Of a stretch of DNA of 64,000 bases, positions 6,905-23,448 are shown piece by piece (positions within the stretch are counted from its first letter, which is position 1; every line of letters starts with the position of its first letter). Source of the DNA: Blautia coccoides (lineage in GTDB: Bacteria > Bacillota > Clostridia > Lachnospirales > Lachnospiraceae); the NCBI RefSeq assembly GCF_034355335.1, contig NZ_CP136422.1, positions 5,554,501 to 5,618,500 on the forward strand. The letters are read 5' to 3'. The translations under genes were made by a program, and so were the position numbers. Below the pieces are notes generated by a model that was not told the origin of the DNA, ran no database searches, and worked only from the letters and a program-made list of their open reading frames with translations.

Positions 6905-7318
6905 TCATTTTTTATGTAACCCGTGACCTTTACAGGGGCTGTGATCTTCCCCAAGACCGGTGATATCAGACATTTTTTCCGCTGCCGTCTCAGAAAAAAA
7001 CACAATCTCGGAAGGTTCCCCGGAGACATTTTCTCCTCCAAGGACAAGTCCGTTGCTGTTTTCCCTGTATGCAAGCGGCAGCAGACGGCTGTATATACGC
7101 CCGGTCGCCTCATCCTGCACATGGACTGTCACCTGGGACGCATTAATGTACTCCGTATCCATATTCTGATACAGCAATTCCATTCTGACATCCAGTGCCT
7201 GCAGGATCTGTCTGTGAAGCTCACCTGTCTGCCTGCAGTCCTCTGCGCCGGCTGCCGCAAGAAGATAATCCAGCAGCCTTGTCACCTGAAGTTCAATCTC
7301 CTGATATAAATTTTCCAT
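6905..7318 (-). CDS. Hypothetical cytoplasmic protein (137 aa)
   Basis: Strong ribosome site (AAAGGAGAG) 3 nt before the ATG. The N-terminal half is predicted helical (QEIELQVTRLLDYLLAAAG), while the second half looks like a short beta-rich domain (VTVHVQDEATGRIYSRLLPL). There is no signal peptide or membrane segment. I do not recognise the family. It is divergent from the aldehyde oxidoreductase operon and shares the 230-bp intergenic region with it, so it could be linked to that operon, but nothing in the sequence proves this. Confidence 0.65.
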   Translation of the reverse strand: MENLYQEIELQVTRLLDYLLAAAGAEDCRQTGELHRQILQALDVRMELLYQNMDTEYINASQVTVHVQDEATGRIYSRLLPLAYRENSNGLVLGGENVSGEPSEIVFFSETAAEKMSDITGLGEDHSPCKGHGLHKK

Positions 7319-7548: not shown

Positions 7549-10287
7549 ATGATTAAAAAAGTATTGAAGATCAACGGCCAGCCGCGCACTTTGATCGTGA
7601 GGGAAGAGGATTCCCTTGCCAAGGTACTCCGTGAACAGATGATGCTGACGGGATGTAAAGTAGGCTGCGGTCAGGGACAGTGCGGCACCTGTACTGTGAT
7701 CGTAAACGGCAAGGCCGTCCGCTCCTGTATCGTGAAAATGAGCAAACTGGAAGATGACTCGGAAATTGAAACTATTGAGGGCATTGGTACAGTGGATGAT
7801 CTGCATCCCCTTCAGGTAGCCTGGATGGGACACGGATGCGCACAGTGCGGATTCTGTTCACCGGGATTCATTATGTCCGCCAAGGTTCTCCTGGAGGAAA
7901 ATCCGTCACCTACCCGTGAGGAAGTGCGCCACTGGTTCCAAGTACACAGGAATCTGTGCCGCTGCACCGGATACAAGCCACTTGTGGACGCGGTAATGGA
8001 TGCCGCCAAGGTTCTGAGAGGGGAAATGAAAAAAGAGGACTTGATCTTCAAGCCGGTGGGCAATAAAATCCTTGGAACCAGCTATGTCCGCCCTTCAGCC
8101 CTCAAAAAAGTCACCGGAACCTGGGACTACGGTGCCGACATAGCGCTGCAGATGCCCGCGGGCACTGCGAGGCTGGCACTTGTGCAGGCTGAGATCCCCC
8201 ATGGGATTTTAAAGGGCATAGACTATTCTGAAGCGGAGAAAATGCCCGGTGTGATCAAAGTGATCACTGCAAAGGATGTAAAGGGAAAGAACCGCATTAG
8301 CGGCCTTATCACCTTTGCCAACAATAAAGGGGATGGCTGGGACCGTCCGATCCTCTGTGATGAAAAGATCTTCCAAATAGGGGATGCGGTGGCTATGATC
8401 GCCGCCGACACAGAGGAACACGCAAAAGAGGCAGCCAAAAAAGTACGGCTGGACCTTGAACCTCTTCCGGCTTATATGAGCGCGCCGGAGGCCATGGCAG
8501 AGGATGCCATTGAGATCCATCCGGGAACGCCCAACATTTACTACGAGACCAATTGTATCAAAGGGGAGGAGACAGGCCCCATCATGGAATCCGCAGCTTT
8601 TGTGGCGGAAGCAGAGACCTACAGCAGCCGGCAGCCTCATCTTCATCTGGAACCTGACTGCGGTTTTGCCTATATAGATGAGGAGGGAAGGCTTACGGTA
8701 CACTCCAAGAGCATCGGCATCCATCTGCACTCTGCCATGATCACCGCAGGTATCGGTATCGAACCGGATAAATTCCGGCTTGTACAGAACCCCTCCGGCG
8801 GCACCTTTGGATATAAATTCAGCCCCACCATGGAAGCCCTTCTGGGGGTTGCCTGTCTGGCGCTGGACGGACGTCCCTGCTCTCTGGTCTATGACATGTA
8901 CCAAAATATCACTTACACAGGAAAACGTTCCCCTGCCTTTATGAACATCCGTATGGCGGCAGATGAGAACGGCAGATTTCTGGCACTGGAAGGTGACAAT
9001 TATATTGACCACGGCCCGTATTCCGAGTTCGGCGACCTGCTGACTATGCGTCTGTCACAATTTACAGGTGCCGGCTATGATATCCGCAATATCCGCAACA
9101 GAAGCCGGACGGTATGCACAAACCATGCCTGGGGATCTGCCTTCCGCGGTTACGGTTCTCCCCAGTCTTACATGGGTTCTGAAGTCTGTATAGACATACT
9201 GGCAGAGAAGATGGGAATCGACCCATTTGAGCTTCGCTACCGCAACATCTACCGGGCGGGCACAGGGTGCACCACCCCTACCGGACAGGAACCTGAAGTG
9301 TACTGTCTGGAAGAGATGTACGAAAAAGCGCGGCCTGTCTATTATGAGGCAAAAGAGAGGCTTGCAAAGATGAACACAGACAAGCTCCGGTACGGAGTGG
9401 GATTCGCAAGCGGTATTTACGGCTGCGGCCTGGACGGAAAAGACAGTTCTTTTGCCAATATAAGGCTGAATCCTGACGGAACCTGTACGGTTTACAACTC
9501 CTGGGAGGACCACGGCCAGGGCGCTGATATCGGTGCGCTGACAATGGCTCATGAAGTTCTGCGCGAGGCCGGATTTACACCTGAAATGATCAAACTGGTA
9601 CAGAACGACACAGCCCTCACACCTGCTTCTGGGCCTGCCGGAGGAAGCCGTTCCAATGTAGTGACCGGCAATGCCACACGTGTGGCAGCCGAAATGCTCC
9701 TGAATGCCATGAGAAAGGATGATGGAACTTTCCGCACCTATGAGGAAATGACAGCAGAAAACATCCCCACCTATTATGAAGGAACATGGGCTGCGGCTGC
9801 CTGTACGGACTGTGACCTGGAGACCGCCCAGGGCGCGCCTTTCAGCAATTACATGTACGAACTGTTCATCCCCGAAGTTGAAGTCAACATGGAGACAGGA
9901 AAAGTCCGTGTCATCCGTCTGACTACCGTATGCGACTTCGGAACCATTATCAACAAAATCGTGGTGGACGGCCAGGTCTATGGCGGCTGTACCCAGGGAA
10001 TTGGGCTTGCACTCACCGAAGATTTTGAGGATTACAGCAGACATACCACATTAAAGGGATGTGGAATTCCTTATCCTGAGGACGTGCCCGATGACTTTAA
10101 CATTATATATACGGAAACTCCAAGGCCTCTTGGTCCCTTTGGGGCATCCGGCTGCGGAGAAGGCCCGCTCACTGCAGGACACCCGGCTATCCTGAGCGCC
10201 ATCTATAACGCAACAGGTGCAAGGGTACTGGAGATCCCGGCTCGTCCTGAAAAAGTAAAGGAAGCAATTGACGCTCTGAAAAAATAA
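7549..10287 (+). CDS. mop: MOP-type molybdenum aldehyde oxidoreductase
   Basis: Single-chain molybdo-iron-sulfur hydroxylase of 912 residues, the layout and length of the Desulfovibrio gigas aldehyde oxidoreductase (about 907), which oxidises aldehydes to carboxylic acids. Residues 1-75 hold the plant-type [2Fe-2S] cysteines (CKVGCGQGQCGTC), and residues 95-155 the second cluster (CAQCGFC and RNLCRCTGY). From about 190 on is the Mo-pterin region, with GGTFGYKFSPT, AFRGYGSPQ and the catalytic Glu in GASGCGEGPL. There is no FAD domain, so electrons must leave to a partner. The next gene, a flavo/Fe-S protein, is the obvious candidate. Strong ribosome site AAAGGAGGT. It leads the ten-gene operon. 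Substrate preference cannot be read from sequence, and a purine hydroxylase role is less likely given the MOP-like layout. Confidence 0.92.
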   Translation: MIKKVLKINGQPRTLIVREEDSLAKVLREQMMLTGCKVGCGQGQCGTCTVIVNGKAVRSCIVKMSKLEDDSEIETIEGIGTVDDLHPLQVAWMGHGCAQCGFCSPGFIMSAKVLLEENPSPTREEVRHWFQVHRNLCRCTGYKPLVDAVMDAAKVLRGEMKKEDLIFKPVGNKILGTSYVRPSALKKVTGTWDYGADIALQMPAGTARLALVQAEIPHGILKGIDYSEAEKMPGVIKVITAKDVKGKNRISGLITFANNKGDGWDRPILCDEKIFQIGDAVAMIAADTEEHAKEAAKKVRLDLEPLPAYMSAPEAMAEDAIEIHPGTPNIYYETNCIKGEETGPIMESAAFVAEAETYSSRQPHLHLEPDCGFAYIDEEGRLTVHSKSIGIHLHSAMITAGIGIEPDKFRLVQNPSGGTFGYKFSPTMEALLGVACLALDGRPCSLVYDMYQNITYTGKRSPAFMNIRMAADENGRFLALEGDNYIDHGPYSEFGDLLTMRLSQFTGAGYDIRNIRNRSRTVCTNHAWGSAFRGYGSPQSYMGSEVCIDILAEKMGIDPFELRYRNIYRAGTGCTTPTGQEPEVYCLEEMYEKARPVYYEAKERLAKMNTDKLRYGVGFASGIYGCGLDGKDSSFANIRLNPDGTCTVYNSWEDHGQGADIGALTMAHEVLREAGFTPEMIKLVQNDTALTPASGPAGGSRSNVVTGNATRVAAEMLLNAMRKDDGTFRTYEEMTAENIPTYYEGTWAAAACTDCDLETAQGAPFSNYMYELFIPEVEVNMETGKVRVIRLTTVCDFGTIINKIVVDGQVYGGCTQGIGLALTEDFEDYSRHTTLKGCGIPYPEDVPDDFNIIYTETPRPLGPFGASGCGEGPLTAGHPAILSAIYNATGARVLEIPARPEKVKEAIDALKK

Positions 10288-10298
10288 AGGATATCAGC

Positions 10299-10322
10299 GG
10301 GAGGGCGCTTCGGCGCCTTCCT
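10299..10322 (+). promoter_or_regulatory. UUCG-capped hairpin between the first two operon genes
   Basis: A 10-bp stem (with G-T wobbles) closes a TTCG loop in the C(TTCG)G context, an exceptionally stable tetraloop. It has no T-tract after it, so it is not a simple terminator. It could stabilise the upstream message or alter the ratio between the enzyme gene and the genes behind it. Confidence 0.6.
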
Positions 10323-10344
10323 GACAAAACGCAGGAGGGATTCC

Positions 10345-12594
10345 ATGCTTGAACTGAACCAGCAAAAATTACATGAACTGGAAGCGAAATGCACAAAGGA
10401 ACAGCCGCCTGCCGCCATGGCTGCCTGTCCTCTTCATGTGGACTGCCGGGAAATCTGCAGGGCCATAGCCGCCTCTGATTTTTCCAAAGCCAGGGAGCTG
10501 TACGAAAAAAACGCTGTTTTTCCCGGCATTTTAAGCCATTTGTGTGAGGAACCCTGCAAAAGTGCCTGTATCCGAACAGAGCATGGCGGTCCCATGCAGC
10601 TCCGCCTGCTGGAAAGCGCCGCACAAGCTTACGGTTCCTTGAAAAAAAGAAGGACTTTTCTTTCCAAAAGGCCCGAGAAAGCCGCAGTTGTGGGCGCCGG
10701 TCTGACCGGTTCATCCGCCGCCCTTGAACTGGGTAAGAAAGGATACTCTGTCACCGTATTTGAAAAAGCTGCCGAACCCGGCGGTTTTCTGCTGACGGAA
10801 AAGCGGCTGCCCAAAGAGGTCCTGCAAAAGGACCTGGAACGTCTGAAGGAATATAAGATTGAAATCCATACCCTGTACAGGGTTGATACGATAGAGACAC
10901 TCACAGAACAGTTTGACGCTGTCCTGCTGGCCTGGGGGCTTCATACCGAACCTGTGGTGACAGACCCCATGACCTTTTACGCCAATGAGGAAAAGCTCTT
11001 TGCCGCAGGAGACGCCCGCAGAACCAACAGCGGAACCATAACGGACGCACTCTCGGAAGGCAGGCGGGCAGCCATTTCCATAGACCGTTATCTGAAAAAG
11101 GTATCGCTTACAGCGGGACGTGAAGCGGAAGGAGGGTTTTCCACCACACTTCATGTAACCTTAAAGGATGAGAAAACCGTAAGCTCCGTCCTTTCCTCAG
11201 GCCTCCCCTCAAAGGAGGAGGCCATACAGGAAGCTTCACGCTGCCTGGAATGCACATGTACAGACTGTATAGACGCCTGCGCTTTTATGCGCCGCTACAA
11301 AGCCTGGCCGAAGAAATATCTCCGGGAAGTATACAACAATCTGGCCATTGCCATGGGTACAAGACACGCAAACAAAATGATAAATTCCTGCAGCCTCTGC
11401 GGGCAGTGTTCCTCCGTGTGTCCTCATGGACTGGATCTGGGGGAAGTCATACAGGAGGCCAGAAATATTATGGTTTCCCAGAATAAAATGCCGGCGTCGG
11501 CATTTGAATTTGCGCTGAACGACCTGGCATTTTCCAACTCGAAACACTGTTTTCTTGTGAAACCTGACCCCGATCAAGCGCAGCCCTCTTATCTTTATTT
11601 TCCGGGGTGCCAGCTTGCAGCCTCCACTCCAAATATCGTATGGCGGTCTTACCATGACCTGCGTTCCCGCCTTCCCGGCGGTACGGGCATTATGCTGGGC
11701 TGCTGCGGAATCATGGCAAAATGGGCCGGGCGAATGGATTTATACCAAGAGACAATCGAACAGCTTAAAAAATCATGGGAAAGCCTGGGCTGCCCTGAGG
11801 TGGTCACCGCATGCCCGGCCTGCCTTACATCCCTCTCAGAATCAATTCCCCGGATGCACTGCACAGGTATCTGGGAAGTACTGCATACGTTTGGCCTGCC
11901 AGACACAGCCTGGCCGGAGTCTTCTCCTTTGAGGATCCACGATGCCTGTCAGGCCAGAAACTCACCCGAGATCAGAGAACAGATCCGGCAGCTTGCCCAC
12001 ACCTGCGGGTTCAGTATCTCAGAGGGCAATTATACGGGAACGTCCTCCGGCTGCTGCGGTTACGGCGGTCTGACGCAGTTCTCCAACCCCTCCCTGGCCG
12101 ACGAAATGGCCGGGCAGTGTATCTCGGATACTGCGTCTCCCTTTCTTACATATTGTATCAACTGCCGGGACCGCTTCCTGAAACAGGGAGCCGAGGCTTA
12201 TCATATACTGGAACTTATCTATTCTTCTTCGGAAGATGAGCACCGATGGCCCTCATACTCCGTGAGACAGCAGAACCGTATGGATCTAAAGCGGAGACTG
12301 TCAAAGGAACTGTGGGGAGAAGATACGGAAGGAGAGATGCCCTTGAAGTTATATTATGACAGTGAAACAGCTGACCTGCTTGAGAGGCGCATGATCTTAG
12401 AGCGGGATATCTGTTCTGTCATCACAGCGGCTGAAGAGACCCGGGAACGGATCCGTGATACCCGCAGCGGGCTGTACATAGCCCACAAAATGGTGGGAAA
12501 CGTCACGTTTTGGGTGTGGTACCTGCCCCGGGAGGATGGATATGAGATCAGCCGCGTATACGCACACCGCATGGAGATCAAAGGGGATATGTAA
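10345..12594 (+). CDS. FAD-dependent oxidoreductase with 4Fe-4S and CCG (HdrD-like) domains
   Basis: Composite redox protein of 749 residues. The N-terminus (about 25-75) has GltD-type cysteines (CPLHVDCREIC, HLCEEPCKSAC). A dinucleotide-binding fold follows (AVVGAGLTGSSAA, about 112-140), with LFAAGDARR further on. Next are two ferredoxin-type 4Fe-4S motifs (CLECTCTDCIDAC; CSLCGQCSSVCP) and two CCG-type cysteine modules (PGC...GCCG; ACPAC; HDAC...SGCCGYGG) as in heterodisulfide reductase subunits. A C-terminal tail of about 90 residues matches nothing I know. Ribosome site GCAGGAGGG. It probably accepts electrons from the FAD-less aldehyde oxidoreductase and passes them to a quinone, thiol or NAD(P) partner; the acceptor is inference. 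Confidence 0.85.
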   Translation: MLELNQQKLHELEAKCTKEQPPAAMAACPLHVDCREICRAIAASDFSKARELYEKNAVFPGILSHLCEEPCKSACIRTEHGGPMQLRLLESAAQAYGSLKKRRTFLSKRPEKAAVVGAGLTGSSAALELGKKGYSVTVFEKAAEPGGFLLTEKRLPKEVLQKDLERLKEYKIEIHTLYRVDTIETLTEQFDAVLLAWGLHTEPVVTDPMTFYANEEKLFAAGDARRTNSGTITDALSEGRRAAISIDRYLKKVSLTAGREAEGGFSTTLHVTLKDEKTVSSVLSSGLPSKEEAIQEASRCLECTCTDCIDACAFMRRYKAWPKKYLREVYNNLAIAMGTRHANKMINSCSLCGQCSSVCPHGLDLGEVIQEARNIMVSQNKMPASAFEFALNDLAFSNSKHCFLVKPDPDQAQPSYLYFPGCQLAASTPNIVWRSYHDLRSRLPGGTGIMLGCCGIMAKWAGRMDLYQETIEQLKKSWESLGCPEVVTACPACLTSLSESIPRMHCTGIWEVLHTFGLPDTAWPESSPLRIHDACQARNSPEIREQIRQLAHTCGFSISEGNYTGTSSGCCGYGGLTQFSNPSLADEMAGQCISDTASPFLTYCINCRDRFLKQGAEAYHILELIYSSSEDEHRWPSYSVRQQNRMDLKRRLSKELWGEDTEGEMPLKLYYDSETADLLERRMILERDICSVITAAEETRERIRDTRSGLYIAHKMVGNVTFWVWYLPREDGYEISRVYAHRMEIKGDM

Positions 12595-12815
12595 TGTCAG
12601 AAAAATACTACGAAACTTACGCATTTGAACCCGGCAGCCTTATCTGTGACAGGTGCAGGACAGCGCTTGTGCCGGGTGAAGTTGTACTGCACTATATGGG
12701 AAACGATTTCCCCATTGAAATGCCGAAATGTCCTGTCTGCGGACAGGCCTTCATTCCGGAGGAACTGGCTATGGGGAAAATCCTGCAGGTAGAACAGGCA
12801 TTGGAGGACAAATGA
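12594..12815 (+). CDS. Small CxxC zinc-ribbon/redox protein (73 aa)
   Basis: Starts within the stop codon of the preceding gene (TAATG), so it is coupled to it. Two CxxC pairs (CDRC near residue 18 and CPVC near residue 46) flank a short beta-rich segment, giving a rubredoxin-like or zinc-ribbon fold of 73 residues. From memory, this matches the small redox family provisionally named after DVU_1557 of Desulfovibrio vulgaris, found next to MOP-type oxidoreductases there. A structural zinc or a one-electron iron site are both possible. It is one of several small accessory proteins of this operon. Confidence 0.75.
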   Translation: MSEKYYETYAFEPGSLICDRCRTALVPGEVVLHYMGNDFPIEMPKCPVCGQAFIPEELAMGKILQVEQALEDK

Positions 12816-12819
12816 CTAA

Positions 12820-13473
12820 ATGACAGAATTAATGGAAAATGACATCTGGGCAGACCAGGCGGCCTCCCATCCGGGAGGCCAAATGCTGACAAAGAGAATG
12901 ATACAAAGGGCACTCCAGGGCGGATGGCTGACAAAGCACAGCCGTCTTCTGGATCTGGGCTGCGGCAGCGGGGAGACCGTAAAACTGCTGCGGAGCATGG
13001 ATTTTCAGGCAGAGGGCATTGACTTAAGAACAGACAAGCATGAGGCATATCTGGTAAAAGGAGACGCCTCCCTTCTCCCGTGGAAGGAACACTTTTTTCA
13101 GGGTGTCCTGGCAGAGTGTACCTTATCTGTTATGGACACAGGTAAGGTACTTCCTGAAGTGCTGCGGATCTTGGAGCCGGGCGGTATCTTTCTGGTATCC
13201 GATATATTTGAACTCGGACGCCGGCCTACCTGGCCTGAAACCTATAATTTTGAACTTTTGTATCTGGAAAACGCCACTCCTTGTCTGAGAAGTTACATCA
13301 GCCAGTGGATCTGGAAAAATGAACGGGCCTGTCCTCCGCTCTGTCTGGAGGGCAGAAAAATCACTCCCGACAATCTTAGTTACTATTACGCGATACTGCG
13401 AAAAAAAGAAAGGGGGCAGGATATCTGTGGAACTCAGGGAATATCTGATGGAACTGGGCATGCAGGGCTTTGA
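12820..13473 (+). CDS. Class I SAM-dependent methyltransferase of the operon
   Basis: About 217 residues, ribosome site GGAGG 10 nt before the ATG. Motif I is clear (LLDLGCGSGETV, about residues 43-54), the acidic ribose-binding residue lies in GIDLR, and the motif IV/V region reads AECTLSVMDTGKVLPEVLRILEPGG. It resembles the family provisionally called DVU_1556-type in Desulfovibrio (recall, not checked). The substrate is unknown; genetic context suggests a cofactor precursor or a protein residue of the molybdo-enzyme pathway. The 3' end overlaps the next gene by 47 nt in another frame. Confidence 0.85.
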   Translation: MTELMENDIWADQAASHPGGQMLTKRMIQRALQGGWLTKHSRLLDLGCGSGETVKLLRSMDFQAEGIDLRTDKHEAYLVKGDASLLPWKEHFFQGVLAECTLSVMDTGKVLPEVLRILEPGGIFLVSDIFELGRRPTWPETYNFELLYLENATPCLRSYISQWIWKNERACPPLCLEGRKITPDNLSYYYAILRKKERGQDICGTQGISDGTGHAGL

Positions 13474-13855
13474 GTGCAGCCAGATCCTCATGATGCTGGC
13501 ACTGGAGACAGACGGGTGTGAAAACCCTGATCTGATACGGGCCATGAGCGGACTAACAGGCGGTATGGGCCACTGTCAAAAGGAATGCGGTGCCCTCACT
13601 GGAGGCTGCTGCGTACTGGGGTATTTCGCCGGAAGAGGCAGCACGGAAGAGATTGAACACAATCAGTTTCAAAAAATCGTCCAAGATTATGTAAACTGGT
13701 TTCAGGAAGAATTCGGAACCCCGGACGGAGGCACAGACTGCAGCTCCATACTGGGTCATGACTTTTCTAAAACATTTGCTGTATGCCTTCCCCTACTGGA
13801 AGCATGCCAGGAAAAATTGACAATGCTTTTAAGCGAGAATGGTGTGATTGATTGA
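13427..13855 (+). CDS. C-GCAxxG-C-C family protein
   Basis: I start at GTG 13427, preceded by AAAGGGGG, although the frame stays open further upstream inside the methyltransferase gene. The protein of 142 residues shows the family pattern: an early FECSQ cysteine, then GGMGHCQKECGALTGGCCVLG (split GHC...CGAL.GGCC) and a late DCSS. Such proteins are thought to bind a metal or redox cofactor, but no member of this branch has an assigned reaction that I know of. Membership of this operon suggests a role in handling sulfur, metal or electrons for the molybdo-enzyme. Confidence 0.82.
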   Translation: MELREYLMELGMQGFECSQILMMLALETDGCENPDLIRAMSGLTGGMGHCQKECGALTGGCCVLGYFAGRGSTEEIEHNQFQKIVQDYVNWFQEEFGTPDGGTDCSSILGHDFSKTFAVCLPLLEACQEKLTMLLSENGVID

Positions 13856-14958
13856 GTCAAAAAAAATATGATGATATTTATGTAGTGATCGCGGCCGCCG
13901 GATGTTCCCGGCGCATGAAGCAGTTTAAACCCCTGCTGCCGCTGAGTGACAAGTGCATCCTGGAATCCACCCTGAAGAATTTTCAGGATGCCGGGCTGCA
14001 CAACATTATAACTGTTGTCGGATACCGGAAGCAGAAGATGATTCCAATTCTGGAAAAGGCCGGTGTCTTTATTGTGGAAAATAATGCCTATGACGAGACT
14101 GATATGCTGGAATCCATCCGTCTTGGACTGCAGTCTCTCCCGCCCCGGGCCAATGCCGTATTTTTATGCCCTGCTGATGTGGCGCTTGTGTCCCCTTTCA
14201 CCATACGGGAACTCATAGCACATCACAGGGCATTTCCGTCTGCAGTCCTTCTACCCTCCTACCATGGAGAAACAGGACATCCTCCTCTTTTTACCAGACC
14301 TGTCATAGAGGCACTGGCGGATTACAGAGGAGATAACGGAATGCACGGTGTCCTGGAGCTTTTTAGGGATGACACAAAAATCCTGGAGGTGCCGGACCCG
14401 GAGATCCTGGAGGACGCCGATCTGCCAAAGGACTATGAACGTCTGAAAGAAGCGGCAAAAAACAGGGGCATTCCCAACACTCAGGTGTGCGAGGATATCT
14501 GGAATTACGTCAAGACCCCTTCCCGCGTACGCGCACACTGTATAGCTGTGGAAGAAACGGCACGGCAGCTTGCAGAAGAGTACAGCGCGAAACACAACAT
14601 CCATATAGACCAAAAGATACTGTCCCGGGCCGCGCTTCTGCACGATATGCAAAAGGGACAGCCGCATCACGCTGAGGCAGCGGCAGATATCCTGGAGCTT
14701 ATGGGCTGCTGCCGTATTGCGGAGTGTATAAGATATCACAGACAATTGCCGCCGCAGTTATGGGACACTGTCAACGAAGTTACTCTGCTCTATCTGGCTG
14801 ACCGCCTGGTGATCGAAGACCGGAGGGTAGATCTATCAGAGCGTTTCCGGCAGAAGGCAGAAAGGTTTGCAGGAAATCCGGATGCGCTGGCATGTCTGGA
14901 GAGAGACAGGAAAACCGCAGAACATCTGTATGAAATGATAAGGGGTGAAAAACCATGA
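13852..14958 (+). CDS. MobA/MocA-like nucleotidyltransferase fused to an HD domain
   Basis: The start is a TTG inside the ATTGAG overlap with the previous stop (4 nt), since an in-frame stop lies just upstream. Residues 8-190 are an NTP-transferase fold (VIAAAGCSRRMKQFKPLLPL; the metal-binding Asp in LCPADVAL), like the MocA/MobA enzymes that attach CMP or GMP to molybdopterin. Residues 225-360 contain an HD-type hydrolase core (LLHDMQKGQPHH, then IRYHR and ADRLV). MOP-type enzymes use the cytosine dinucleotide cofactor, so CTP:molybdopterin cytidylyltransferase activity is the best guess. What the HD domain hydrolyses is unknown. Confidence 0.86.
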   Translation: MSQKKYDDIYVVIAAAGCSRRMKQFKPLLPLSDKCILESTLKNFQDAGLHNIITVVGYRKQKMIPILEKAGVFIVENNAYDETDMLESIRLGLQSLPPRANAVFLCPADVALVSPFTIRELIAHHRAFPSAVLLPSYHGETGHPPLFTRPVIEALADYRGDNGMHGVLELFRDDTKILEVPDPEILEDADLPKDYERLKEAAKNRGIPNTQVCEDIWNYVKTPSRVRAHCIAVEETARQLAEEYSAKHNIHIDQKILSRAALLHDMQKGQPHHAEAAADILELMGCCRIAECIRYHRQLPPQLWDTVNEVTLLYLADRLVIEDRRVDLSERFRQKAERFAGNPDALACLERDRKTAEHLYEMIRGEKP

Positions 14959-16079
14959 TCTATCTGAACAACTCTGCAACTTCTTTTCCGAAGCCGCCCA
15001 TATTTGCTGATGCCTGGCAGCGGGCGTCAGTCAAAATACCCGGGCACGGAACACGCTCCACTTACCGGGAGGCAAAGGTACCTATTTCCTGCCGTCAGCG
15101 GCTGGCAAAGCTGCTGCATATAGATGACAGCAGGCGTATCATCTATGCACCAAATGCCACACATGCCCTTAATATGGGGCTTCTCGGATTCCCCTGGTCA
15201 AAAGGTGATGTTGTACTGACCAGCCGGGCGGAACATAATTCCGTGCTGCGTCCCTTATACAGCCTCCAAAAACGCGGGATGATCCGCTACTATGAGCTGG
15301 ATACCGACAAAAGCGGGCGTCTGGATATGGGTGTTTACCGGGAAGCGCTGGCAAGTCTTCATCCTCGTATGGTAATCATTACCCATGCGTCCAATGTGAC
15401 AGGCGCGGTAAATGACGCCGCAGTGATCGCAGATGAGGCTAAAAAAGCCGGTGCTGCTGTTTTTCTGGATGCCGCACAGACCGCGGGTGTAATCCCTGTC
15501 CTGCCGGCCCTGTGGAATGTGGATATGGCAGCCTTTACCGGACATAAATACCTGCTTGGCCCTCAGGGTACCGGAGCGCTGTATGTTTCACCGGATATAG
15601 AGCTTGCTCCTGTCTTTACAGGGGGAACCGGAATCTATTCTGATCTGGATGAAATGCCTGTGGATTATCCCATCCGTCTGGAGGCAGGCACACAAAACGA
15701 ACAGGGCATGGAGGTTTTGGGCGAAATGCTTGCATGGGCGGAAGATCATCCTTTTGATCTACACAGGCTGTTGGAATATGTCTATATGCTGGAGGACACT
15801 TTAAAAGGCCTTGGATGCTCTGTAGTACCTGTAACCGGCGGCCGTACACCTGTGCTTACCTTCACCTCACCGGATTACGCCCCCGCAGATATCGGGGATA
15901 TGCTGAGCGGCAGTTTTGACATTATCTGCCGTACCGGGCTTCACTGCGCGCCCCACATTTTCCCGTATATAGGGGCCGGCAGGGACGGAACGGTCAGGTT
16001 CAGCCTGTCCAGGTTCACCACACCAGAGGAGGTTTACCAGGTCATCAGCGCTTTAAAGGAGATTTTCAATGGAAATTAA
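14955..16079 (+). CDS. Class V aminotransferase, cysteine desulfurase-like
   Basis: PLP enzyme of 374 residues overlapping the previous gene by ATGA. It begins IYLNNSATSFPKP like NifS/SufS relatives. The PLP Lys is in FTGHKYLLGP (about residue 197), the cofactor Asp/Gln in FLDAAQTAG, and a Cys at the usual desulfurase position in TGLHCAPH. It could deliver sulfur, or selenium, to the Mo site as the equatorial sulfido ligand, or to another thio-cofactor made by the operon. No SufU or IscU scaffold lies nearby, which argues against general Fe-S assembly. Confidence 0.87.
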   Translation: MIYLNNSATSFPKPPIFADAWQRASVKIPGHGTRSTYREAKVPISCRQRLAKLLHIDDSRRIIYAPNATHALNMGLLGFPWSKGDVVLTSRAEHNSVLRPLYSLQKRGMIRYYELDTDKSGRLDMGVYREALASLHPRMVIITHASNVTGAVNDAAVIADEAKKAGAAVFLDAAQTAGVIPVLPALWNVDMAAFTGHKYLLGPQGTGALYVSPDIELAPVFTGGTGIYSDLDEMPVDYPIRLEAGTQNEQGMEVLGEMLAWAEDHPFDLHRLLEYVYMLEDTLKGLGCSVVPVTGGRTPVLTFTSPDYAPADIGDMLSGSFDIICRTGLHCAPHIFPYIGAGRDGTVRFSLSRFTTPEEVYQVISALKEIFNGN

Positions 16080-17766
16080 AATACTGGGCTGTGAAAAGGC
16101 GGACAACTGTTTCGCCAATGCAAAATCATACATCTATACACTCTCCTCACCTGTAAATGATGCTCTTTTGGAAAAAATGTCATACTGGGGCAGGATGAAG
16201 GTGAGGCGGGATTTCAGAAGGCCTTTCTTTATGCTGGATACAGATGAAGGGATTCAGCTAAAAGGGGTCCTCAATGAAAATGTGATCAAAGCCGGGTTTC
16301 CTGAGGATACATGGGAAGAGAAGAAATCGGATTTTGAAAGACGGTTATGCGGCGGTACGGACCAGCCGGAAGTTATGGGGAAAACAGAAAGTGTCTGTCC
16401 TGTCTGCCTCAGACGGCTGGACGCGCAGAAGGTCCAAGTGGGGGATCAGGTATATCTGGAGAAGTCCTGCCCCGAACACGGAGATTTCCGCGCTCTCATC
16501 TGGAACGGACCTCCGGCATACCGGACCTTTGACAGAGAGCGCTGTTTTACGGCGCCTGTGGCACCCGCGGTCGCATCAGACAAGGGATGTCCCGATGACT
16601 GCGGGCTTTGTCCGGAACACCGGCAGCGCACCTGCTGTGTGCTGCTGGAGGTGACGAACCGTTGTAATCTTGAGTGTCCCGTATGCTTTGCAGCTTCACA
16701 GGCTGAGAACTCTGCCAAACAGAGTTTTTCTTTGAATGAGCCTGACCTGGAAAATATCAGACATCGTTTTCAGGCTATGATGCACATGGGCGGTCCATTT
16801 AATATACAGTTATCCGGCGGGGAACCTGCCATGCGGGATGATCTGGCCCACATTATCCGTATGGGAAAAGAGATGGGATTTCCCTTTTTCCAGCTCAATA
16901 CCAACGGCATACGCATCGGTAAAGATTTTGATTATCTGAAAAACCTGGCTGATGCCGGCCTTGACTGTGTATTTCTGCAGTTTGACGGGCTGAGTGAGGA
17001 GACATACCGGAAGCTAAGGGGAAGGGAGCTTCTTCAGGCAAAGCTGGATGCCATAGCAGCCTGCCAAAGGGCAGGTGTGGGAGTTGTGCTTGTCCCTGTC
17101 ATCGTACCGGGTGTCAATGACGGTGAGATCGGTCATATCCTCGACTTTGCCCTGGAGCATATGCCAGTGGTGAGAGGCGTGCATTTCCAGCCTGCAAGTC
17201 ATTTCGGAAGGTATGACCAACGGCTGCCCAAAGACCGTTATACGCTTCCTGAACTTCTTCGGGCAATTGAAGTCCAGACAAAAGGGCAGATGAAGGCTAA
17301 AGATTTTTCACCTGGCAACGCGGAAAATCCCTATTGTTCTTTCAGCGGAAATTTTATACTTCAGGCCGACGGGAAACTGCAGCCGTGGCGTACTGGAACA
17401 TCATGCGGGTGCGGAACAGCCGATTCCTCTAAAAAGGCCCGGGAATTTGTGGCAAAGCAGTGGTCAGCGCCTCAAAAGGACTGCTGCTGTACGGATTCCC
17501 CCTCCCGGAGCACTTCGTCCTGCTGCGATACCAGTTCTCTTGACAACTTTCTTGATCGTCTGGAGCAATACAGCCTGGCAGTCTCCGCCATGGGATTTAT
17601 GGACGCCTGGACACTGGATCTTGAAAGGCTGAAGGAATGTTATATCCACGTGGTTACCGGGGAAGAAAATGTACGTCTCATCCCATTTTGTGCCTATAAC
17701 CTGACCGCCGAGGACGGCACCTGTAAATACCGAGGACACGAGAAAGGATATCATAAATGCCCGTAA
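16069..17766 (+). CDS. Radical SAM protein with N-terminal zinc ribbon and Cys-rich C-terminus
   Basis: 565 residues, ribosome site AAGGAG, overlapping the previous gene by 11 nt. The N-terminal 170 residues carry a zinc-ribbon-like CPVCLRRL...SCPEHG and DDCGLCPEH. The radical SAM cluster motif CNLECPVC lies near residue 201, with the SAM-binding LSGGEPAMR near 246. The C-terminal 130 residues are Cys-rich (SCGCG, DCCCTDS, SSCCDTS) and include IPFCAYNLT. The build resembles MoaA/NifB-like proteins such as tetraether-lipid synthase relatives. From memory, the closest match is the family called TrsS, which is often a selenoprotein. Here the frame is continuous without an internal TGA, so any Sec would be replaced by Cys. 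The reaction is unknown. Confidence 0.86.
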   Translation: MEIKILGCEKADNCFANAKSYIYTLSSPVNDALLEKMSYWGRMKVRRDFRRPFFMLDTDEGIQLKGVLNENVIKAGFPEDTWEEKKSDFERRLCGGTDQPEVMGKTESVCPVCLRRLDAQKVQVGDQVYLEKSCPEHGDFRALIWNGPPAYRTFDRERCFTAPVAPAVASDKGCPDDCGLCPEHRQRTCCVLLEVTNRCNLECPVCFAASQAENSAKQSFSLNEPDLENIRHRFQAMMHMGGPFNIQLSGGEPAMRDDLAHIIRMGKEMGFPFFQLNTNGIRIGKDFDYLKNLADAGLDCVFLQFDGLSEETYRKLRGRELLQAKLDAIAACQRAGVGVVLVPVIVPGVNDGEIGHILDFALEHMPVVRGVHFQPASHFGRYDQRLPKDRYTLPELLRAIEVQTKGQMKAKDFSPGNAENPYCSFSGNFILQADGKLQPWRTGTSCGCGTADSSKKAREFVAKQWSAPQKDCCCTDSPSRSTSSCCDTSSLDNFLDRLEQYSLAVSAMGFMDAWTLDLERLKECYIHVVTGEENVRLIPFCAYNLTAEDGTCKYRGHEKGYHKCP

Positions 17767-19415
17767 AAAGAAGTGTACTGGATACCTGGATAGAGAAAAA
17801 AGAAATGTTGTCTCTCTCCTCCCGAAAAGCTCTGTCTGACTGGCAGCTCAAAAAAATCCGAAATCTTTTGGTCTATGCAGGCGCAAACAGCCCATGGTAC
17901 CGGAAAAGACTCTCGGGTCACGCACTACCGGAATCTCTGGAAGAGTTTGCGTCCTTTCCCCTGATGGACGGGCAGGACCTGGCAGATGCCGGACTTTCTA
18001 TGCTGTGCGTCTCTCAGGGAGATATCAGCCGGGTGGTGACTTTACAGACTTCAGGAACGGAAGGCCGTCCCAAACGTATTTTTTATACTGCCGGGGACCA
18101 GGAATTAACCGTCAGCTTTTTTCATCACGGAATGTCTGAACTGACCTCAGAGGGGGAAGCCGTGATGGTATTTCTTCCATTCAAAGCAGAAGGGTGTGTG
18201 GGAGATCTGCTGATCCGGGGACTGAAAAGGCTGGGTGTGCAGCCGGTTGGATACGGACTGATGGATGATTTGGCGAACTGCGCAAAAGCCATACTGGAAA
18301 ACCGGATTTCCTGTGCAGTGGGAATCCCTGTACAGTTCCTCGCGCTTGGTGAATACTGCAGAAAACGGGGGATACACCTGCCCTTAAAAGCTGTACTTTT
18401 AAGTACGGACTATCTGGCTCTGCCGGTGCGGGAAAGAATTGCATCTGCTCTTGGATGTGAAGTATACAATCATTTTGGCATGACGGAGACCGGATTGGGA
18501 TGTGCCCTTGAATGCGGCGCGCATGATGGAATGCATATCCGGGAGAATGATATCTATGCGGAAATTGTGCATCCTGTGACTCATGAGGTTCTGGAAGATG
18601 GTGAGTGGGGGGAGCTTGTGGTCACCACACTTACCAGAAAAGGAATGCCGCTTCTGCGTTACCGGACCGGCGATTTTGCCAGGCTGCTTCCGGGAACCTG
18701 CGCCTGCGGCAGCCGGTTAAAGCGGCTGGAATGCGGAGGACGGCTGGGCTTTGGAGGTATGATAGCAAAACTGGATGAAGCCCTGTTTTCCATGGATCTA
18801 CTGGTCGATTATAATGCGGAGTATGAACCTGATGTTAAAAGGCTTACCCTTGGATTAAAGTTTATGGACGATAGGTTTTGTGTGGAGAGGATCTGTGCAG
18901 ATAAAAATAGCATAGATATAAGCAGTGCGAATGGAAACTGTATGGATAGAAACTTTACTAGTGAAAACTGTAACGATGGGAGCTGTAGCGATGGGAACTG
19001 CGGCGACGGAATCTGTAGCGATGGAATCTGTAGTGATGGAATCTGTAGCGATGAGAACTGTAGTGACGAAAACTGTAACCACAAAAACTGCAGCGATGAG
19101 AATTGTAGCGACGGAAACTGTGCTGATGGAAACTGTAACAATATAATCTATAGCAACGGAAACTGCAGCGACGGAAACTGTAACTACAAAAACTATAACT
19201 ACAGAAACCGTATGAATAGATGTTATATCGATAGAAACGATATAGACATAACGATAAATAAACTTCTTAGTGACGCCGGATTAGATATCTATTTCAACGA
19301 GGTATGTATTTCCTGTTCCGGTCTGAGTCATATTTTAGACTGCCGTGCAGGGAAACGGAAAGTTAAAATTAGAGGTAAATATGAATTTGATCTTCATGCG
19401 GCATGGTATGCCTGA
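17757..19415 (+). CDS. Acyl-CoA ligase (phenylacetate-CoA ligase-like) with Cys-rich pentapeptide insertion
   Basis: 552 residues, overlapping the radical SAM gene by 10 nt. Residues 1-370 are an ANL-family adenylation domain: TLQTSGTEGRPKRI is the P-loop, YNHFGMTETGLGCA the A5-like motif, and LRYRTGDFARL the conserved Asp region. From residue 394 to about 488 there is an insertion of 19 tandem five-residue units of the type NCSDG with about 15 cysteines, after which the C-terminal domain resumes (DITINKLLSDAGLDIYFNEV). It resembles the ligase provisionally named after DVU_1553 (recall). The acid substrate is unknown. An acyl-adenylate step inside a cofactor pathway is an inference from context. 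Confidence 0.85.
   Translation: MPVKRSVLDTWIEKKEMLSLSSRKALSDWQLKKIRNLLVYAGANSPWYRKRLSGHALPESLEEFASFPLMDGQDLADAGLSMLCVSQGDISRVVTLQTSGTEGRPKRIFYTAGDQELTVSFFHHGMSELTSEGEAVMVFLPFKAEGCVGDLLIRGLKRLGVQPVGYGLMDDLANCAKAILENRISCAVGIPVQFLALGEYCRKRGIHLPLKAVLLSTDYLALPVRERIASALGCEVYNHFGMTETGLGCALECGAHDGMHIRENDIYAEIVHPVTHEVLEDGEWGELVVTTLTRKGMPLLRYRTGDFARLLPGTCACGSRLKRLECGGRLGFGGMIAKLDEALFSMDLLVDYNAEYEPDVKRLTLGLKFMDDRFCVERICADKNSIDISSANGNCMDRNFTSENCNDGSCSDGNCGDGICSDGICSDGICSDENCSDENCNHKNCSDENCSDGNCADGNCNNIIYSNGNCSDGNCNYKNYNYRNRMNRCYIDRNDIDITINKLLSDAGLDIYFNEVCISCSGLSHILDCRAGKRKVKIRGKYEFDLHAAWYA
18936..19220 (+). repeat. 15-bp tandem repeat encoding Cys-rich pentapeptides
   Basis: Nineteen consecutive 15-bp units in frame with the ligase gene. 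The consensus encodes Asn-Cys-Ser-Asp-Gly, with Ile or Ser at position 1 and Glu or Lys at position 5 in some units. The first and last units are degenerate and the central ones (18990-19150) nearly identical, as expected for expansion by slippage. Confidence 0.9.
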
Positions 19416-19938
19416 TATTGAACCGGACTCCCGACGATGTATTGGCCAGACGGATTATCCCCTGTCTCCTTACGGAAGAAAACAAATGGAAGAAAGCGCA
19501 GTACGGCTGAAAAACATCTACATGCCCAATATCATTTACTGCAGTCCACTTCTGCGCTGTATACAAAGTGTCTGCATATTGAGTCAGTTTTTCTGCTGTG
19601 GTATTTATTTTGCAGAAGGTCTGGCAGAAATTCATATGGGAGAATGGGAGAATCTTACCTTTTCTGCCATAAAAGAACGATATCCCCTTCATTATGAGGA
19701 GCGTGGACGCGCAATGGCAGATCATCCGGCTCCGCGCGGAGAAACGTTCCGGGAGGTGCAGACACGGGCAAATGCCATGGTCTGCCGGGCCACAGCAGAT
19801 GCGGATGCAAATGACACGATTTTGTTTGTAACTCATATAGGGGTAATACGCAGTCTTTTGTGCCTGTATGAGAACAGACCGCTGGACCGGTTGTTTGACT
19901 ATTCTCTTGGCTATGGGGATTATCTTGAGTTGAACTGA
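19381..19938 (+). CDS. Histidine phosphatase (phosphoglycerate mutase-like)
   Basis: I start at the ATG behind AGAGGTAA, 35 nt before the end of the ligase gene. The 185-residue protein has the RHG catalytic motif (FMRHGMPD, residues 5-12), an Arg at RCIGQTDYPLS, the acid in AEIHMGEWENL and the second His in THIGVIRSLL. This is the branch containing CobC-like alpha-ribazole phosphatases and other small phosphatases. As the last gene of the operon it probably removes a phosphate from a pathway intermediate; cobalamin synthesis genes are absent here. The 3' end of the gene is itself the first degenerate unit of the repeat array that follows. Confidence 0.87.
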   Translation: MNLIFMRHGMPDIEPDSRRCIGQTDYPLSPYGRKQMEESAVRLKNIYMPNIIYCSPLLRCIQSVCILSQFFCCGIYFAEGLAEIHMGEWENLTFSAIKERYPLHYEERGRAMADHPAPRGETFREVQTRANAMVCRATADADANDTILFVTHIGVIRSLLCLYENRPLDRLFDYSLGYGDYLELN

Positions 19939-20071
19939 TTCTTGAGTTAATCTGATTCTTGAGTTAATCTGATTCTTACGTTGATTTGATTCTTACGTTG
20001 ATTTAATTCTTGAGTTGGTTTAATTCTTGAGTTGATTTAATTCTTGAATTGATTTTATTCTTGAGTTGATT
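19919..20071 (+). repeat. 17-bp minisatellite array (9 units)
   Basis: Eight units starting at 19936, 19953, 19970 and so on every 17 bp, consensus TGATTCTTGAGTTGATT. They are preceded by a degenerate unit (19919-19935) that is the end of the phosphatase coding sequence. Neighbouring units share the same variants, as in tandem duplication. Confidence 0.92.
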
Positions 20072-20080
20072 TTATGTTTA

Positions 20081-22161: not shown

Positions 22162-23448
22162 ATGAATTGTAACACACAGAACACAAAAATTGCATCCATA
22201 ACTGAAAAAACTTTGATCGTTGGTATTGATGTCGGAAGCGAAACGCACTATGCGAGAGCATTTGACTGGAGAAATTTCGAGTTTACCAGAAAACCTTTGA
22301 TTTTCAGCAATACACAAGCAGGGTTCCTTACATTTAAGGCATGGATCGAGGAAATACAAGAAAAGAATGGTAAAACCGCTGTAATTCCCGGAATGGAGCC
22401 AACAGGACACTATTGGTTCGCTTTAGGAAAGTTCCTGCAGGACAACGGAATGAAACCTGTGCATGTAAATCCCCATCATGTCAAGAAATCCAAGGAACTG
22501 GATGATAACAATCCTAATAAAAATGACCGCAAAGATCCAAAGACGATTGCCGCACTGGTGAATGAGGGACGTTTTTCCTACCCTTATATACCAACCGGGA
22601 TTTATGCAGAGATGAGAAGCTTATCCAATCTACGCTTCCAGACACAGGAGGAAGTTACCCGGATCAAGAACCGCATTGCCAGATGGTTTGCCATTTACTT
22701 TCCTGAATACAAAGACGTTTATAGGGATTTAAAGGCAGTCAGCGGGCGGATGATACTGAAGGCAGCGCCGCTGCCGGAGGACATCGGGAAGTTGGGCGTG
22801 GAAGGTGTAAACCAGATCTGGAGAGACGCAAAGCTGAGAGGGGCTGGAATGAAGAGGGCAAAGACCCTGGTATCAGCTGCAGAGCACAGCGTAGGCAGTA
22901 AGGAAGCACCGGAGGCAGCGAGAATGGAACTGAAAAATCTGCTGGACGACATGGATGTATATACATCAAGACTGGAAGAACTGGTGCAAAAGATAGAAGG
23001 TAAGCTGAAAGAAATACCATATATAGATAAGCTGCTGGAGATCAAAGGGATCGGTATGGTGACAGTAAGTGGATTTATTGCAGAGGTGGGCGACATTAGA
23101 CGTTTTGACAACCCCAAACAGCTGCAAAAGCTTGCAGGCTATGCGATCGTGGCGAACGATTCAGGCAAGCATAATGGAGAGAGCCGTATCAGCTACCGAG
23201 GAAGAAAACGACTGAGATATGTACTGTATGAAGCGGCGATATCACTAGTCGGAAAGAATGCGGAATTTCGAGAGATCCATGAATACTATCGGACGAGAAA
23301 AGAGAATCCGCTGAAAAAGATGCAGTCAGTAGTGGCAGTGGCATGTAAGGTGATCAGGGTGTTTTATACGATCCTGACAAAAGGAGTCGATTATGACGCT
23401 GCAAGGCTGCTGGGTGATATCAAGCATCCGCAGATGCAGACAGCATAA
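22162..23448 (+). CDS. tnpA: IS110/IS1111-family transposase (DEDD recombinase)
   Basis: 428 residues with an intact frame. The N-terminal RuvC-like DEDD domain shows VGIDVGSETHYARAF, GMEPTGHYW and the acidic KNDRKDPK. A central helical region follows. The C-terminal Tnp_20 domain has a helix-hairpin-helix-like IKGIGMVTVSGFIAEVGD, GYAIVANDSGKHNG and RGRKRLRYVLYEAA; the Ser expected as catalytic nucleophile in this domain is present. Ribosome site AGAGAGG. The enzyme acts with the RNA encoded in the same element to choose target and donor sites. No frameshift or stop is seen, so it may be active. Confidence 0.95.
   Translation: MNCNTQNTKIASITEKTLIVGIDVGSETHYARAFDWRNFEFTRKPLIFSNTQAGFLTFKAWIEEIQEKNGKTAVIPGMEPTGHYWFALGKFLQDNGMKPVHVNPHHVKKSKELDDNNPNKNDRKDPKTIAALVNEGRFSYPYIPTGIYAEMRSLSNLRFQTQEEVTRIKNRIARWFAIYFPEYKDVYRDLKAVSGRMILKAAPLPEDIGKLGVEGVNQIWRDAKLRGAGMKRAKTLVSAAEHSVGSKEAPEAARMELKNLLDDMDVYTSRLEELVQKIEGKLKEIPYIDKLLEIKGIGMVTVSGFIAEVGDIRRFDNPKQLQKLAGYAIVANDSGKHNGESRISYRGRKRLRYVLYEAAISLVGKNAEFREIHEYYRTRKENPLKKMQSVVAVACKVIRVFYTILTKGVDYDAARLLGDIKHPQMQTA

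Follow-up and report, generated by a model that had tools for sequence, protein, structure and literature searches.

The 64,000-nucleotide stretch of Blautia coccoides DNA analyzed here (contig NZ_CP136422.1, positions 5,554,501 to 5,618,500; referred to as the window) contains a ten-gene operon that opens with a molybdopterin-dependent aldehyde oxidoreductase (MOP) and also encodes TrsS, a radical S-adenosylmethionine (SAM) protein (Table 1). An earlier interpretation made from the letters alone (the sequence-only reading) had placed ten open frames at 7549-19938 on the forward strand, and all ten are present where it put them. From MOP to PHOS, the nine junctions run +57, -1, +4, overlap, -4, -4, -11, -10, and overlap. 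A scan against NCBIfam matched each of the ten genes to a family; seven passed the cutoff of their best model, and MT, AT5, and PHOS missed it.

Table 1. Genes of the operon and the neighboring UPS gene, in window coordinates (model cutoffs, in bits, in parentheses)
Gene	Predicted product	Coordinates	Strand	Evidence
MOP	Molybdopterin-dependent aldehyde oxidoreductase, 912 aa	7549..10287	+	NF045668, 1582 bits (1100), model positions 1-904/905
DICL	Flavin/[4Fe-4S]/HdrC-like dicluster/HdrB-like double CCG protein, single chain, C-terminal SP91	10345..12594	+	NF045663, 892 bits (530)
CXXC	Zinc-ribbon-like protein, 73 aa, DUF7479/DVU_1557 family	12594..12815	+	NF045645, 96 bits (60); PF24292
MT	Class I SAM methyltransferase, DVU_1556-like	12820..13473	+	NF045667, 112 bits, below cutoff (155)
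CGA	C-GCAxxG-C-C protein, DVU_1555 family	13427..13855	+	NF045669, 159 bits (103)
NTP-HD	Fusion of MocA-type nucleotidyltransferase (NTP transferase) and HD domain, DVU_1551 family	13852..14958	+	NF045665, 355 bits (315)
AT5	Class V aminotransferase/cysteine desulfurase-like	14955..16079	+	TIGR01977, 289 bits, below cutoff (377)
TrsS	Radical SAM protein; residues ~1-100, TRSN domain	16069..17766	+	NF045646, 618 bits (490)
LIG	PaaK-like adenylate-forming ligase, DVU_1553 family	17757..19415	+	NF045666, 418 bits (300); PaaK 4r1l, E 6e-31
PHOS	Histidine phosphatase, CobC-like	19381..19938	+	PF00300; TIGR03162, 120 bits, below cutoff (163)
UPS	137-aa protein, divergent	6905..7318	-	Relatives in 40/80 loci

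Two of the listed starts lie inside longer frames. The longest CGA frame begins at 13319, and the gene probably starts at GTG 13427, which is preceded by GGGGG in a purine-rich context; for PHOS, with a longest frame from 19345, a purine-rich stretch precedes ATG 19381, the probable start. The match of MT to NF045667 covers residues 16-132 only, and MT scores 179 bits against a profile grown from the operon's own relatives; its place within the operon is kept across loci. AT5 contains GLHCAP and GHK motifs. Within LIG, imperfect 15-base repeats at 18933-19212 (+) encode a cysteine-rich, NCSDG-like tandem-repeat stretch in the C-terminal part of the protein; at 552 codons, LIG compares with 373 to 542 codons, mostly 420 to 466, for 15 other over-cutoff ligase frames from Clostridia genomes.

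Eight window genes match eight of the nine NCBIfam models for this neighborhood (NF045645, NF045646, and NF045663 to NF045669), seven of them over cutoff and MT below it. The ninth, the XdhC model NF045664, has no over-cutoff match in the genome, with 195 bits at the best place (cutoff, 350). An XdhC relative is seen at G000:C1:3795146-3796204 (L188, L189), with a second piece of 108 bits in another frame and with stops. DVU_1551, DVU_1553, DVU_1555, DVU_1556, DVU_1557, and TrsS are names given by NCBIfam itself, so its curators had already noticed the neighborhood, and the placeholder DVU_155x names given in the sequence-only reading are those in use. The neighborhood is therefore already known in NCBIfam under placeholder or general names; the models (DVU_1551-DVU_1557, TrsS) name families without any pathway, and a function is not assigned there. 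In the literature, TrsS in the present sense was met only in a table of one review (PMC13188914), which credits it to Haft and Tolstoy 2025 (PMC12013261). Titles and abstract openings yielded no paper on the operon; an earlier description in Haft and Tolstoy 2025 is possible. Locus-name searches returned nothing for DVU_1551-1557 and mentions of DVU_1558 and DVU_1559 only, the latter being listed in print as an aldehyde oxidoreductase.

To survey the operon, a scan with a TrsS alignment retrieved 269 relatives, of which 80 loci were kept, and genes were counted with profiles grown from the window proteins. Full-flank counts refer to the 55 loci of at least 20 kb, the 25 shorter than 20 kb being excluded. 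The 80 loci span Bacillota, Chloroflexi, Proteobacteria, Geobacteraceae, Synergistaceae, and others, and they share a core of seven genes: the C-GCAxxG protein and TrsS (80 loci each), DICL, the CxxC protein, and the PaaK-like ligase (78 each), the methyltransferase (73), and MOP (69). Each of the seven occurs in at least 53 of the 55 full-flank loci (CxxC, 55; methyltransferase, 53). The NTP transferase was counted in 51 of the 80 loci, the HD domain in 48, the phosphatase in 38, the aminotransferase in 29, and TRSN in 24; the corresponding full-flank counts are 38 for the NTP transferase, 29 for the phosphatase, and 25 for the aminotransferase, with XdhC in 36 and UPS in 32. TRSN is a gene of its own in 18 loci and fused to TrsS in 6, and it adjoins the aminotransferase in 23 of these 24. 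Frequent additional neighbors are XdhC (NF045664 family), a MoeA-like protein, sigma-54 regulators, ModA, and ModB, with the cluster representatives of the last two scoring over cutoff. A ModC profile was dropped, as it matched general ABC ATPases (two in the window) and its representative fell below the modC cutoff. That the same genes return in the same order in 80 loci of many groups is far beyond chance, rules out a fortuitous neighborhood, and agrees with the earlier view of these genes as a conserved unit with MOP.

Genome-wide co-occurrence, a check suggested alongside the sequence-only reading, gave an almost one-to-one correspondence of MOP and TrsS in three genome samples. Among 291 Clostridia genomes, MOP and TrsS each exceed the cutoff in the same 11; the ligase does so in 12, the one genome beyond these 11 (G496) carrying a truncated MOP on the same contig, and the methyltransferase exceeds it in 9, all within the 11. 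Weaker relatives are common in this sample (ligase at E<=1e-50 in 181 genomes, methyltransferase at E<=1e-22 in 32). Among 198 Desulfobacterota genomes, all 13 with MOP also have TrsS, and 6 of the 19 with TrsS lack an over-cutoff MOP. In one of the six, G109, a contig end interrupts the MOP gene (890 bits), and in three of the other five, of which completeness is not established, the MoCoBD_1 domain was not detected; the MoCoBD_1 scan found none in G080, G113, G136, and G044 and a match in G130 and G157. In 199 Desulfovibrionaceae genomes, using E<=1e-150 to the Desulfovibrio gigas protein for MOP and E<=1e-60 for TrsS, MOP was found in 134, TrsS in 131, and both in 127. Eight of the 11 mismatches were inspected (all but G252, G386, and G388), and seven are due to contig ends: in MOP-only G229, G321, G333, and G378 the contig ends inside the operon (G378 additionally has a lone MOP), in TrsS-only G312 and G394 a MOP fragment sits at the contig end, and G372 begins within DICL. 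In the eighth, G203, TrsS is doubled and the stretch fetched contains no MOP. The two Desulfobacterota samples share at least six genomes (G045, G081, G114, G143, G170, and G195). Of 14 control genomes, three gave a TrsS match, none over cutoff. Sister oxidoreductases scoring 740 to 809 bits are found in five genomes without TrsS (G038, G052, G094, G147, and G189), and three genomes with it have them as a second copy. The expectation that these families would be confined to genomes with a molybdenum hydroxylase thus holds for over-cutoff ligase and methyltransferase in Clostridia, where one of the MOPs is truncated, but, by the MoCoBD_1 scan, not for three of the five Desulfobacterota genomes that carry the core without MOP.

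The window MOP has two [2Fe-2S] domains and Mo domains by Pfam, and the same domain scan found no flavin adenine dinucleotide (FAD) domain. It is 58% identical over 908 columns to the MOP of D. gigas (Protein Data Bank [PDB] entries 1SIJ/1VLB), the PDB chain of which matches one genome, taken as D. gigas, at 100% identity over 906 residues. There, the gene order is MoeA-like, MOP, DICL, CxxC, methyltransferase, C-GCAxxG, TrsS, ligase, XdhC, and then phosphatase. The downstream core genes are the same as in the window operon; the window differs in having AT5, TRSN, and NTP-HD, with no NTP transferase, aminotransferase, or TRSN match in 31 kb of the D. gigas locus, and D. gigas in having XdhC and the MoeA-like protein, neither of which has a match anywhere in the 64-kb window. 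The window MOP shares F425, F494, L497, and H653, which are near-invariant (at least 97%) in 69 MOPs, the contrast set being only two sister proteins. As described in two reports (PMC3877041 and PMC10223205), D. gigas MOP contains a pyranopterin cytidine dinucleotide with an oxo ligand replacing the sulfido ligand, carries no FAD, and is active without the sulfido ligand. The sequence-only reading had raised an unexplained cofactor or maturation pathway, but the enzyme encoded in an operon of this kind has an ordinary cofactor in these reports, which speaks, at least for D. gigas, against a lasting visible modification of the Mo cofactor. Because of the oxo ligand, sulfuration is also not clearly needed. 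The aminotransferase is optional, being present in fewer than half of the full-flank loci.

The product of the adjoining gene, DICL, offers a possible route for the electrons. In a fold comparison that covered mainly residues 19-260, model residues 18-252 aligned 232 residues to positions 46-472 of 5jfc_L, with ~195 target residues skipped. By these models, the flavin half of DICL is of the NfnABC type, without the NAD(P) domain, and the other half is of the HdrB type; the latter has two C..CC..CxxC motifs (C422, C453, C454, C490, and C493; C535, C570, C571, C604, and C607), invariant in 31 sequences. DICL differs from the large subunit of NfnABC/StnABC and from HdrABC in being one chain, in lacking the NAD(P) domain, in its added SP91, and in adjoining a MOP gene. 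We propose MOP and DICL as an electron pair because their genes adjoin, because the flavin half has no NAD(P) domain, and because that half is absent from the HdrC/HdrB proteins of loci without MOP (see below). D. gigas MOP has been described as missing its flavin partner, with flavodoxin as a putative partner (PMC10223205); DICL is a concrete candidate for this partner or electron acceptor. SP91 comprises the last ~85 residues of DICL (window ~12330-12594) and is a stand-alone small protein in six loci (L140-L145); three stand-alone copies scanned gave no Pfam match.

TrsS is, according to structure-guided comparison, a close relative of tetraether lipid synthase (Tes/GDGT-MAS, MJ0619), with which it shares the fold, rubredoxin site, N-terminal auxiliary cluster, SAM cluster, and labile Met position. 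Each position matching the Tes ligands of the rubredoxin iron, N-auxiliary, and SAM clusters and the labile Met is conserved in 35 of 35 sequences, including the CX3CX2C cysteines C199, C203, and C206. Unlike Tes, TrsS falls below the tetraether lipid synthase model cutoff (359 versus 450 bits), has lost the conserved Tyr459 (position 528, mapped by hand, is V in 29, E in 3, I in 2, and T in 1 of 35), and has an added Cys448, invariant in 35 sequences. The window TrsS gene contains no in-frame TGA, and selenocysteine in one G552 TrsS was rejected, as the TGA counted there appears to be the frame end. Pterin methylation, implied by the Pfam name HMPTM and by database names, was also set aside, since the Tes paper treats the pterin-methylase assignment of MJ0619 as uncorroborated. 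A DUF5714 domain, which NCBIfam ties to the metal-binding selenoprotein MbdU, is fused to TrsS in P0069 and P0057 (one Pelotomaculum) and directly follows TrsS and ligase at L169:6621-7199. TrsS frames of 675 to 743 codons in L204 (G298:C4), G282, G284, and G309 have split profile matches that suggest large insertions.

The core also occurs apart from MOP. Six Desulfobacterota loci (L140-L145) encode the CxxC protein, methyltransferase, TrsS, and SP91, five of them with the ligase, and have no MOP match in the stretches fetched. In L140, L141, L143, and L144, the HdrC/HdrB half of DICL is a protein of its own without the flavin half; L142 has DsrM- and DsrK-like proteins, and its methyltransferase, TrsS, ligase, and C-GCAxxG protein all exceed the curated cutoffs. 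The TrsS of L145 is in pieces and below cutoff. Across L140-L144, the core is retained and the donor side apparently varies. Two Clostridia loci (L168 and L169) have two consecutive TrsS genes without a MOP on the contig stretch; MOP lies elsewhere in their genomes. In a quick TrsS tree (30 of the 80 loci, 12 further MOP-linked, 9 MOP-free, and 9 Tes-like sequences), the proteins of L140-L145, L168, and L169 group together as a single clade (support, 100) nested among MOP-linked TrsS; supports of only 80 to 87 on the surrounding branches leave the direction of change uncertain. Conversely, the second MOP of G485 (L187) has only DICL and CxxC alongside, L146, L155, and L197 have MOP without any core gene, and the L147 operon lacks a TrsS, with two on another contig (L186) of the same genome. 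These arrangements imply that TrsS, methyltransferase, and ligase are able to function in trans as a module, and the retention of DICL and CxxC in L187 marks them as the closest partners of MOP. In L171/L172, MOP lies >20 kb from the remaining genes.

Drawing on gene content, co-occurrence, predicted folds, conserved ligand positions, the MOP-free operons, and the D. gigas operon, we tentatively favor a division of the operon into MOP-DICL aldehyde oxidation, a separable TrsS module, and an optional Mo-cofactor layer. MOP would oxidize an aldehyde using ordinary molybdopterin cytosine dinucleotide, with electrons leaving through its two [2Fe-2S] clusters to the DICL flavin and passing over [4Fe-4S] clusters to the HdrB-like double CCG site; the CxxC protein would be part of the MOP-DICL complex. 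TrsS, methyltransferase, C-GCAxxG protein, and ligase would form the second, trans-acting module, combining Tes-like radical chemistry on an unreactive carbon with methyl transfer and adenylation. Its product would most likely be a small molecule or protein-bound group, reduced at the HdrB-like site of DICL or, in operons without MOP, of the corresponding protein. The NTP transferase-HD protein, XdhC, MoeA-like protein, phosphatase, and aminotransferase would make up the optional layer. Because both kinds of operon share an HdrB-like half (DsrK-like in one), the TrsS module probably has an HdrB-like reductase as its partner, with MOP as one of the donors.

Several observations weigh against this division. 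The electron path, the complex, and the nature of the product are inferred, none of them being demonstrated. The CxxC matches in L140-L145 are weak (31 to 57 bits), and L145 shows neither an HdrB half nor DsrMK-like proteins. L063 and L028/L186 (the latter two being the same place) have full-length DICL without linked MOP, though their genomes hold MOP elsewhere. Given the position of the MOP-free clade, separability from MOP may be derived. Finally, genomes with MOP almost always have TrsS, even for unlinked MOP copies, and two database proteins fuse TrsS with a MocA-like domain (P0060 and P0103). These last two facts keep alive an explanation in which the whole set serves maturation or repair of MOP, by which the co-occurrence is explained equally well or better: TrsS, methyltransferase, and ligase would act on the Mo cofactor, apoprotein, or dithiolene and leave no trace in the crystal, e.g., through a protecting group removed at insertion or by reductive reactivation. 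The frequency of XdhC and NTP transferase genes in full-flank loci fits such a role, as does the report that certain batches of D. gigas MOP lack activity and that strong reductants reactivate them through the dithiolene (PMC3877041). We nevertheless regard maturation as somewhat unlikely, with the ordinary D. gigas cofactor, the existence of the core without MOP (including genomes in which MoCoBD_1 was not detected), and the 11 of 55 full-flank loci with none of XdhC, NTP transferase, MoeA-like, ModB, or ModA within the stretch standing against it.

The ligase, nearest to phenylacetate-CoA ligase, raises the alternative of linear catabolism, whereby MOP converts an aldehyde to an acid, the ligase forms the acyl-CoA, and TrsS and methyltransferase rearrange the acyl chain. 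D. gigas MOP is reported to accept benzaldehyde (PMC3877041), an aldehyde-dehydrogenase-family gene lies in the flanks of 6 of the 80 loci, and HGD-D proteins accompany MOP-free cores in L141 (two, with an activase) and L169 (one). Against this, the 40 commonest of 47 neighbor clusters, judged mostly by eye, include no other acyl-CoA enzyme, thioesterase, or organic-substrate importer, and the methyltransferase, CxxC, and C-GCAxxG proteins are left without a role; we consider catabolism unlikely. Even less support attaches to a lipid pathway, suggested by Tes, in which TrsS would couple or modify fatty acyl chains, the ligase would activate fatty acids, and MOP would oxidize fatty aldehydes. 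Tes chain residues 334-445 remain unaligned in the sequence profile, Tes-like proteins below the TrsS cutoff form a separate clade in the tree, and none of 10 loci with such proteins matches the methyltransferase, CxxC, or ligase (L179 has a DICL-like frame of 177 bits), making this pathway very improbable.

Within the division favored here, the product of the TrsS module could be given a more specific identity, albeit one that we rate as quite improbable: TrsS, methyltransferase, and ligase would build a new redox group, possibly carried by the DUF7479 CxxC protein or by SP91. This group would carry electrons specifically for an HdrB-like reductase with exchangeable donors, either an aldehyde through MOP and flavin or quinol through DsrMK-like proteins. 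Such a system would be the anaerobic equivalent of mycofactocin, likewise a radical SAM pathway tied by co-occurrence to oxidoreductases, with which, to our knowledge, the operon has no genes in common. The much-studied D. gigas enzyme is one of a conserved set of proteins, among which the radical SAM protein, methyltransferase, and ligase have no assigned product. As this set can exist without MOP, the question becomes less one of a new Mo cofactor than of finding that product.

Immediately upstream of the operon, UPS gave no family in Pfam and NCBIfam scans. Its relatives, found in 40 loci, are divergent and directly upstream of MOP in 17, on the same strand directly upstream in 7, and 4 to 13 kb distant in 15, with no MOP seen in 1; a GKGPD..C stretch is kept near the C terminus of the family. 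Downstream, a 17-base tandem unit (8.8 copies, 89% matches) occupies 19923-20072, starting at the end of the PHOS gene, and the frame at 22162-23448 (+) presumably encodes an IS110-type transposase, which it resembles.

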